The translations under genes were made by a program, and so were the position numbers. Below are positions 1 through 4,351 of a stretch of DNA of 37,186 nt, in pieces (position 1 is the stretch's first letter; each line of letters opens with the position of its first letter). The notes under the pieces were generated by a model, which worked only from the letters and a program-made list of their open reading frames with translations, had not been told where the DNA came from and ran no database searches. This DNA comes from a virus: the IMG/VR virus record IMGVR_UViG_3300044837_000270, positions 1-37,186 of that record. One strand, 5' to 3'.

Positions 1-171
1 GGCATCGCTGAGGTCGGCATCGCTGAGGTCGGCACCGCGGAGGTCGGCACCGCGGAGGTTGGCACCGCGGAGGTCGGCATCGCTGAGGTCGGCATCGCTG
101 AGGTCGGCATCGCTGAGGTCGGCACCGCTGAGGTTGGCACCGCGGAGGTCGGCATCGCGGAGGTCGGCATC
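1..171. repeat. Tandem 15-bp repeat array (codes pentapeptides)
   Basis: Eleven near-identical 15-bp units (consensus GGCAYCGCKGAGGTY on the + strand) encode the pentapeptides. Units differ only at a few positions, with several identical copies in a row. Such an array is recombination-prone and is a natural place for an assembly to break. Confidence 0.9.
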
Positions 172-267
172 GACGGCGACCGCCTCCTGCAAAGCCTGCC
201 GAACATCCTGCGCGTTCTCGGCCGTATAGAGGACCTTGCCGCTCCATCGGTTCTTGATCTGGATCAT
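1..267 (-). CDS. Pentapeptide-repeat protein, partial (runs off the left edge)
   Basis: The first 89 residues are visible, with no stop before the window edge. A short leader ([20 protein letters not shown]) is followed from about residue 34 by uninterrupted A(D/N)LxX units ([20 protein letters not shown]). Such repeats fold into a right-handed quadrilateral beta-helix. The leader, with its NRWSGKVL stretch, resembles small phage-encoded pentapeptide proteins. The ATG at 267 overlaps the TGA of the upstream gene (ATGA), so it is translationally coupled to the mIHF-like gene. Some pentapeptide proteins mimic DNA and protect gyrase, but nothing here shows a target. The family call is firm and the role is unknown. 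Confidence 0.9.
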
Positions 268-1769: not shown

Positions 1770-2234
1770 TCACGCCGCGCTCCAGTCGGCGTCGACGTCG
1801 AACATCGAAGGAACCGAGCGAGGCGTCACACCGGAGGCCTTAGCGGACGGCGTGCTCATCAGTCCACGTGAACCCACGGCCTCTAATGCCTCGCTCTCGC
1901 TCGAAGCAACGCTGGCGGCAGACATGCCTGACCCCCTAGGAGGACTCCCAACTCGCGTTGACGAACCGTCAGCGCTGCTTCCAGTGAGTTGATCGCTCGA
2001 ATGGACGCCGCCGCGTACGACTGCCTGGCCGGGGCCAGGGACGACGCCCACTCCAGCGAGGCGGTACCGGGTGTACTTGCCCTCCCGCACCGATTCGATG
2101 CCGACGCCCTGGTCTCGAAGGTCACGGATGCGCGCGGCGCCTCTTGGCATCCCACAGGCGAAGAATTCCCGACTACAAATCCCGTTCCTCCCCGCTTGTC
2201 GCAGCATCGCTAGGACTTTCTCGTTTTGAGTCAT
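1770..2234 (-). CDS. Winged-helix DNA-binding protein with disordered tail
   Basis: 154 aa. Residues 1-60 read as a small winged helix: a first helix [16 protein letters not shown], a second around [11 protein letters not shown], a recognition helix [12 protein letters not shown] and a beta-wing [10 protein letters not shown]. The rest (61-154) is Ser/Gly/Ala-rich and probably unstructured, ending [10 protein letters not shown]. The position just upstream of the DUF1376-like gene is typical of a phage replication initiator or its loader, but this is inference from context. The start overlaps the stop of the HNH gene (ATGA at 2231-2234). Its first 22 residues are closely repeated at the N-terminus of that HNH gene. 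Confidence 0.7.
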
Positions 2235-2830
2235 CCCGCGCTGCTCCTACGCTTAGCCTCGCGGCTGCACGCACGACACACACGATGCCCGGACCCAGGA
2301 CGGTGATACGTGTTCTCCTCGTCATACGGGTGGCCATGCGGGCAGTGAGTCCTCTGGGCCGTTGCTCCTCGTCGCAGATTCTCCATGTGGGTGACCGGCT
2401 CCAAGTGCGCCGGGTTGCAGCACGGCGGGTTGCGGCAGAGGTGGTCGAGCTCAAGGCCAAAAGCTATGGTTCCAACGAGAAGTTCATAGGTCGCCCGATG
2501 CGCCAGCTTCTTCCGGCCTTCCACGCTGACAATCCCGTAGTTCTGATTGTTTCTACCGGCGGCCCAAATCCAGCAGTCGCTTTGGGTGAAATCGATGGAG
2601 CCAGCCAAACGGGGCGCTAATGGCTGAGGGCGACCCTGGCCGCCCTGGTGACCACGCAGGAAATCCCGGGGCTCCCCCTTGACCCAGCCCCGGTCAGGCC
2701 GCGTTTCGGGTGAGACTTTGGCCTTCGCCCCGCACCCGCACTTGCAGTAGCCGTATTCGTCACTGCGGATGCCGTTGCGGCCGGCGACCCGCAACATGGA
2801 GAGGACGCGTTCGGTCTGCGTGGGAACCAT
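2231..2830 (-). CDS. HNH endonuclease with a captured wHTH N-terminus
   Basis: 199 aa. Three parts are visible. Residues 1-24 ([20 protein letters not shown]) closely match the start of the downstream winged-helix protein. Residues about 28-62 hold a zinc-binding CKCGCG segment and a [11 protein letters not shown] motif that often opens phage HNH proteins. Residues about 85-190 hold the HNH core: CWIW, then [20 protein letters not shown] with the catalytic D-H and the zinc Cys, then ENLRRG and a CPHGHP/CRAC zinc pair. HNH_3-type homing nucleases nick or cut DNA and spread by repair. The start overlaps the upstream stop (TGATG at 2828-2832). Confidence 0.85.
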
Positions 2831-3678: not shown

Positions 3679-3890
3679 GCCGCATTCCGTCTCTGGGGGG
3701 CACGCTGGGATCGCTCAAGTCGTTCGGCGGTACGGACGTGCTTGGAGCAGGGATAGAGGTACTGCCCGGTGCCGTAGATGTGTTTGCCGGGCCGGCGGAT
3801 TTCGATGGCTTTGACGCCCGGCTTTCTGCACCAATCACATTCCCGAGTCTTCGGATCTGCTGCTTCGCCTGGGTAGGCTCGACTAGCCAT
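3675..3890 (-). CDS. Small zinc-finger-like protein, 71 aa
   Basis: Contains CDWC at about residues 18-21 and a later C-x-K-H (PCSKH, about 47-51), which could bind one zinc ion, within a basic protein. Such one-finger proteins are common in phage early operons, with unknown targets. The start overlaps the upstream HNH gene (TGATG), and the stop overlaps the next start. Confidence 0.65.
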   Translation of the reverse strand: MASRAYPGEAADPKTRECDWCRKPGVKAIEIRRPGKHIYGTGQYLYPCSKHVRTAERLERSQRAPQRRNAA

Positions 3891-4351
3891 CAGACGGCCA
3901 CCCGTTGATTCGTGTGGTGTTCAGCGTGGTGAGCGCAACAGAGCCAGCGAACGTCCAAGGGTTTGCTGTAGTCGTCGTGGTGGCCCTCGACTTTCAGCGA
4001 GCCACAGACTTCGCACGGCTGCCTTTCTAGGCGACCATCACGGAGGGCATTGCCGAGCTTGATCTGCGCTTCGCGCTTCTCGGGATTCCGCCTGGCCCAC
4101 TCGCGGCTTATCTCATTGGAGCGGTCGCGATTCTCGCGGTGCCACTTGTTCGAGAGCGCCCGACGTTTCGGTTTGTCCCGCTCATAGCGCGCTCGGTCGT
4201 TTACCTTGACGCGCTCGGGGTCGCGCCGGGCGATGAGTTCGCGGCGCTCCTGCAGCGTCTTACTTCGGTATTCCTCACGCGCCTTTCCCCGGCGGCGGCA
4301 CCTAGGGCACTTGCCACATTCACAACTTGGGGGTCTTCCGGTTCGCGCCAT
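3890..4351 (-). CDS. HNH-family / zinc-ribbon phage protein, 153 aa
   Basis: An N-terminal Cys cluster (CECGKCPRCRRRG, about residues 10-22) is followed by a very basic helical linker rich in R, K and E, then a C-terminal CEVCG plus HHDDYSKPLDVRWLCCAHHAEHH block (about 112-147). That C-terminal block is the compact HNH/zinc-binding module seen in many phage proteins annotated as HNH endonucleases. It is a second, unrelated HNH gene about 1.1 kb from the first. Only 3 nt separate it from the end of the SSB-like gene upstream. Confidence 0.75.
   Translation of the reverse strand: MARTGRPPSCECGKCPRCRRRGKAREEYRSKTLQERRELIARRDPERVKVNDRARYERDKPKRRALSNKWHRENRDRSNEISREWARRNPEKREAQIKLGNALRDGRLERQPCEVCGSLKVEGHHDDYSKPLDVRWLCCAHHAEHHTNQRVAV

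Follow-up and report, generated by a model that had tools for sequence, protein, structure and literature searches.

An HNH nuclease gene that begins like its winged-helix neighbour: a phage element that probably replaces the 5′ end of its target gene

Introduction

Why should a phage nuclease gene begin like the gene that follows it? The question is raised by an HNH locus on the minus strand of the IMG/VR virus record IMGVR_UViG_3300044837_000270, which was analysed over its 37,186 bases and is called the window below. The first residues of the HNH protein resemble those of the winged-helix (wH) protein encoded next to it, and the initial annotation explained this by an HNH element that had landed in or beside a duplicated wH gene and kept its start, possibly to borrow its DNA targeting. 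Free-standing HNH genes are common in phages, and to our knowledge their target sites are mostly unknown.

In this work, we examine the origin of the shared start by comparing the two proteins, their codons, related phages and other nuclease loci. We will argue that a homing-type HNH element has probably landed in the wH gene, that it uses the resident start, and that it brought a divergent replacement 5′ end with it.

Results and Discussion

Both open reading frames, HNH and wH, were confirmed, and the features of the locus are collected in Table 1.

Table 1. Features of the HNH locus, in window coordinates.
Feature	Position	Strand	Basis
59-aa ORF	3009-2830	-	ORF list
HNH gene, 199 aa, HNH_3 / phrog_826 type	2231..2830	-	PF13392 E 1.2e-8; phrog_826 E 2.9e-48
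Stub, HNH residues 1-25, similar to the beginning of wH; interpreted as the original 5′ end of the resident wH gene, still in use as the HNH start	2756..2830	-	sequence match and analogy with Malisha
CxCGCG module, HNH residues 26-61, usual opening of related nucleases	2648..2755	-	nuclease comparison
HNH_3 catalytic domain, residues 108-153	2372..2509	-	Pfam match
wH gene, 154 aa; residues 1-60 form the wH fold, the tail is of low confidence	1770..2234	-	HTH_91 5.8e-5, HTH_39 5.6e-4, AlphaFold
wH codons 1-25, the second start; interpreted as a replacement 5′ end, divergent in sequence, that came with the element	2160..2234	-	codons randomised relative to the stub; GC3
ATGA overlap of HNH stop and wH start	2231..2234	-	sequence
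DUF1376-like gene, 110 aa	1437-1769	-	profile match

The HNH protein reaches 34.9 bits with PF13392 against a curated cut-off of 24.8, which places it in the HNH_3 / phrog_826 type. Among solved structures, two homing endonucleases come closest to its model, I-PpoI (E 6.5e-3) and I-HmuI (E 2.4e-2), both of them weak matches. For the wH protein, HTH_39 (20.2 vs 21.3 bits) and HTH_91 (23.2 vs 27) fall just below the Pfam gathering scores; the fold is nevertheless a confident winged helix in the AlphaFold model (pLDDT >90 for residues 1-60), whose best PDB match is 6j05_A (E 1.6e-2). Nothing points to an intron-borne homing endonuclease: a search for group I introns with the Rfam models, at E values up to 1, was negative for the window and for the loci L186, L094, L102 and L206 discussed below. 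A search for target-site direct repeats flanking the HNH gene returned only short chance repeats.

Some other features of the window are recorded here for completeness. A second nuclease-like gene (phrog_2340) lies at 3890-4351 (-), directly downstream of a 281-aa gene, and in the related phage G004 (L029 1706-2994) an HNH_3 ORF ends where the homologous gene starts. The match of the DUF1376-like protein to a primosomal family of 345 positions is limited to the initial ~110 of them, and its gene is missing in the relative G001 between the wH gene and the next one. At 1-240 (-) a pentapeptide-repeat protein, assigned by eye, runs off the left end of the contig.

The likeness of the two starts is strong at the protein level, with 16/22 identical residues between HNH residues 4-25 and wH residues 2-23. 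A tblastn search of the HNH protein against its own record recovered the wH start unprompted (E 2e-5, 59% over 32 aa). Chance can be excluded as the cause, because the best local score of the two starts is 80 while none of 20,000 shuffles exceeded 48, and because among 595 pairs of N-termini of window genes the next-best pair scores 34. The near-copy noticed in the initial annotation is thus borne out for the proteins.

The same is true of the place where the likeness stops. A module-alignment scan, which returned 80 of 159 loci, allowed 74 CxCGCG-module nucleases from IMG/VR to be delimited. In 62/74 of these the match to the window protein begins at residue 25-27, exactly at the usual HNH opening, and in 63/74 the nearest start codon lies at most 18 residues before the first Cys, a typical opening being M..IPYGYCxCGCG. 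Since both the match and the start codons of the relatives begin there, residues 1-25 are an extra piece joined directly before YGYC. There is no in-frame ATG, GTG or TTG between the stub and YGYC in the window, and the nuclease therefore depends on a start inside the stub.

The DNA gives a different picture. Over the 22 shared codons the stub and the wH start agree at only 40/66 bases, so that an alignment of the two starts upholds the protein likeness and not a plain DNA copy. By codon position the agreement is 15, 18 and 7 of 22, and the value for third positions lies below the 9.8 expected from random codon choice with the phage's own codon usage. With the silent sites randomised while the residues are kept, a simple duplication is unsupported, and a recent DNA duplication of the wH start is excluded by the third codon positions. 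The codons suggest that either selection has acted on both copies, or both were once real gene starts before they met.

To compare the locus with and without the HNH gene, relatives of the window phage were found via terminase and capsid searches. HNH matches (E <=10) were present in 1/6 related records, which may be fragments; this one, G004, has three HNH genes at other sites, and such patchy presence among related genomes is that of a free-standing homing endonuclease. A recognisable wH gene was found in G001 alone among the 6 records. There it occupies the syntenic place, flanked by homologues of the window's 281-aa and 93-aa genes and free of an HNH gene. An HNH-free counterpart of the locus thus exists, but with 42% identity over 66 aa to the window wH protein it is too distant to tell which start is native: its own start agrees with the HNH copy at 11/22 residues and with the wH copy at 10/22. 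Which of the two window starts is native therefore rests on the analogy with phage Malisha. Closer wH relatives were sought in phages (only Mannheimia, E 0.09), in plasmids and in IMG/VR, which gave nothing beyond distant family members, and the 93-aa neighbour gene had no phage match. In the related phage G003 (L026 13139-14400), three small adjoining ORFs share the start (A/T)(K/R)xHLRAVV(E/D)GET and then diverge, and no nuclease was recognised there.

The Gordonia phage Malisha provides a natural experiment. Its gp29 (locus L186), an HNH match with 45.6 bits for PF13392, starts MRVVKLRGAGESLGGRNMLSSIAGEDLP. It is followed by the lysin B gene, whose product begins MTRVYKLRGAGEPLDGRNMLSSIPGHEV; here, too, the two genes overlap by ATGA. 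Many relatives of Malisha have lysin B without the HNH gene. Bases 100-739 of L186 are 100% identical to one of these HNH-free phages, Spooky, through the upstream membrane-protein gene and the first 83 nt of the HNH ORF, which in Spooky are the first 83 nt of lysin B; base 739 is where the alignment stops in 7/7 relatives compared. Since the 83-nt stub fused to the HNH gene is identical to Spooky lysin B, the start of the HNH gene is the resident lysin B start.

The start behind the Malisha HNH gene, on the other hand, has a separate, diverged origin. Its codons 1-29 have third-position identities of 0.29-0.46 to 10 relatives, compared to 0.45-0.73 for later segments of the gene. Against Spooky, the lysin B identity per ten codons is.60.63.63, followed by.93.93.90, and a change point falls after codon 32 (0/2000 permutations). 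The control of 8 relatives (28 pairs) shows no such dip, with third-position identities of 0.54-0.96 in codons 1-28. The diverged segment is about as long as the stub, and it follows that the HNH gene arrived together with a replacement 5′ end. Malisha thus has a native and a divergent terminus flanking the nuclease, as in a terminus-replacing mobile ORF, and the window has the same layout, with the stub as the presumed native copy. A blastn search for the donor gave no other match to the body of the Malisha HNH gene. The part of the original proposal in which an element lands in a gene and keeps its start is accordingly seen in Malisha, with another gene as target, while the simple duplication finds no support in the silent sites of the window.

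Recurrence was assessed at 147 nuclease loci, where the translation of the left flank was aligned with that of the right flank. In this set, which is biased and partly made up of near-identical members, 7/147 loci gave a match at E <=1e-5; weaker rows, up to E 1e-3, were dropped as chance. By eye, five of the seven were classed as stub type (the window, Malisha, L094, L102 and L206), and the other two (L216 and L253) as tandem nuclease copies. The window and Malisha were known before the test, so the new stub-type cases amount to 3/145, a small count. As a control, 6/480 random blocks gave a match at the same cut, all judged to be paralogues or repeats (Fisher 0.016 for 7/147 vs 6/480). The invaded gene is a CAP-domain gene in L094 and an Amidase_2 endolysin in L102; L206 comes from a bacterial genome, and its HNH protein reaches 42.6 bits with PF13392.

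In 5/5 stub-type cases the duplicated part is the N-terminal end, and none shows the replaced C-terminal end of the fungal mitochondrial mobile ORFs (mORFs) discussed below. Nuclease and invaded gene run in opposite directions in L102 and L206, and the stub lies outside the HNH protein altogether; in these two loci the stub therefore cannot serve the nuclease and is merely what remains of the target. GC3 is higher in the stub than in the second start in 5/5 cases (0.83/0.58 in the window, and 0.81/0.64, 0.75/0.58, 1.00/0.80 and 0.68/0.49 in the others). The next 40 wH codons of the window are at 0.78; a start as low in GC3 as that of the wH gene is by itself found in 6/32 other window genes.

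In earlier surveys the N-terminus in the HNH frame was compared with the surrounding locus. No similar case emerged from 68 other module loci except L094 (E 2.6e-4), from 42 bacterial HNH_3 loci (18/60 were skipped), or from 20 other annotated phage endonucleases. L102 and L206 were missed by these surveys because their stubs are antisense to the HNH gene. The 68-locus survey was run with no composition correction, and Arg-rich frames therefore gave chance matches down to E 2e-5 (L058).

The nuclease loci also yielded a number of separate observations. L034, L091 and L094 share, upstream of the HNH start, a DNA leader ~100-190 bases long with 70-82% identity, which is perhaps part of the mobile unit. 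The CxCGCG module is matched by no Pfam model, and it accompanies HNH_3, endonuclease VII (L009) and LAGLIDADG nucleases. In L090 (2-3805 of IMGVR_UViG_3300050026_000598), a 1267-codon ORF that looks terminase-like by eye contains intein (Hint) domains and LAGLIDADG_3, and the second of its intein-like inserts harbours the CxCGCG module. The nucleases of L066, L088, L091 and L111 have two or three modules in tandem, an arrangement that suggests a bead-like target-recognition unit.

A passive mosaic junction has to be weighed against the carried 5′ end. Illegitimate recombination could have joined a left arm ending in the wH gene to a right arm that starts with an HNH gene followed by an intact wH gene of that arm, without any contribution from the nuclease and with no end being carried. 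Malisha fits this in one respect: compared with Spooky it is 98-100% identical over 8.5 kb upstream of the stub, and 84% identical, then non-homologous, downstream of the HNH gene, which thus sits exactly on a mosaic boundary, with DNA beyond it that is unlike Spooky in any case. Nucleases have also been reported at boundaries of genetic exchange in phages, as described in excerpts from a study of phage ICP1 (PMC10448857). However, the divergence is concentrated in the first ~30 lysin B codons and drops abruptly inside the gene, so that there are two junctions near the Malisha HNH gene and not one, and the pattern recurs beside one nuclease family in both orientations. We therefore consider a passive junction improbable.

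If the wH start was duplicated locally long ago and selection has kept the two copies, this would account for the codons of the window. The N-terminal 25 residues of the HNH protein would then be functional, for example as a helix through which it dimerises or touches the wH protein. Residues are indeed conserved while silent sites are saturated: second positions differ at 4/22 codons, which is too few for a fragment drifting freely after duplication (P <=0.0045 at a third-position distance of >=1.5). Such a duplication is nonetheless quite unlikely, as the Malisha pattern has another origin, with a stub that is unchanged resident sequence, the stubs of L102 and L206 are not part of the HNH protein, and the fragment is predicted with low confidence in the AlphaFold model (pLDDT <50 for HNH residues 15-24).

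The structure also bears on the suggestion that the HNH protein borrows the DNA targeting of the wH protein. The helices of the wH fold span residues 3-14, 21-26 and 32-41, and of these the stub includes the whole of helix 1 and the first part of helix 2, without the recognition helix (helix 3) and the wing. With these absent and the fragment poorly predicted, borrowed targeting is unlikely, and this suggestion finds no support. Complete wH domains fused to HNH domains are known from type IV restriction enzymes, according to the cited part of PMC11037411, while the HNH protein here has only residues 1-25. That a wH-HNH fusion already existed at another place and acquired its wH neighbour accidentally is very hard to believe, since a scan of 84,980 genomes and 2.9 million viral contigs gave no other such fusion at the same spacing (46 matches to a fixed-spacing motif in viral and genome contigs were all chance reads), since no wH-like start was seen among the N-termini listed for the 80 module loci, and since the wH neighbour is by far the closest wH relative of the HNH N-terminus, with 16/22 vs <=11/22 for the others.

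We return to the preferred reading, in which the HNH element brings the new 5′ end. The element, free-standing and of the homing type, would have inserted in the wH gene directly after codon ~25. Upstream of the junction, the 5′ end of the resident wH gene would have been left as a stub in frame with the HNH gene, which in this sense orientation would take its start codon and translation signals from it. Downstream of the HNH gene, a second, silently diverged wH 5′ end would have been joined to the rest of the gene, so that a full-length wH protein would still be made, from an ATGA-coupled start. By analogy, the window would have arisen as the Malisha locus did. The HNH nuclease may cut its target near the end of the stub, and an obvious guess is that the diverged start would protect the restored gene against re-cutting.

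The closest parallel is provided by the terminus-replacing elements of fungal mitochondria. As described in the cited portions of PMC3630166, the mORF elements bring in a foreign 3′ end of a gene, and the native end persists next to them; the genes concerned are atp6 in Allomyces and atp6, atp9, cox2 and nad3 in Glomus. The endonuclease gene there lies between the native gene end and a divergent copy, the hybrid gene is full length, and the native copy matches the element-free relative; fungal atp6 copies have 63.5% DNA vs 91% protein identity, with mostly silent differences (PMC3630166). In the fungal elements, as those portions present them, the 3′ end is replaced and the nuclease is of the LAGLIDADG or GIY-YIG type, whereas in the phages considered here it is the 5′ end, with an HNH gene started from the native stub (PMC3630166). 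Duplication of GIY genes together with the atp9 N-terminus is mentioned in a single line of a survey of fungi (PMC7487136).

Among phage systems, the free-standing mob/seg homing endonucleases of T4 resemble the present case in that HNH members occur, sporadically, next to a presumed target gene, and T4 examples cut the neighbouring gene in element-free phages; they lie between genes, however, and the cited passages describe no target stub (PMC2988022). The homing endonucleases of ICP1 are similar in being located at a recombination boundary with pieces of other genes joined to them, but, in the excerpts cited, whole DNA-binding domains are captured for new targeting, unlike the fragment without recognition helix in the window (PMC10448857). 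HNH genes are also patchy in Skunavirus, according to the cited part of PMC12724721. Among open-licence PubMed Central papers, we saw no phage precedent for an HNH element that strands the start of a gene and supplies a new one.

Conclusions

In annotation, it should be borne in mind that HNH proteins of this kind can begin with ~25 residues left over from a different gene. Provided that the cut is marked by the stub, genome sequences would reveal target sites directly, and these could be tested with named phage pairs, such as Malisha vs Spooky. A homing nuclease that brings a recoded gene start is a possible answer to how a coding sequence can be invaded without an intron or intein. For the family, the picture may be equally well right or wrong in its general form: phrog_826-type HNH elements of phages and prophages could carry a private, diverged 5′ end of their target gene, and so combine insertion in a coding sequence with restoration of the gene in one step. 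The end of the stub would then be a record of the cleavage site, the diverged start would confer self-immunity, and a sense-oriented nuclease would take over the start codon of its victim, in a mirror image of the fungal atp6-type elements.
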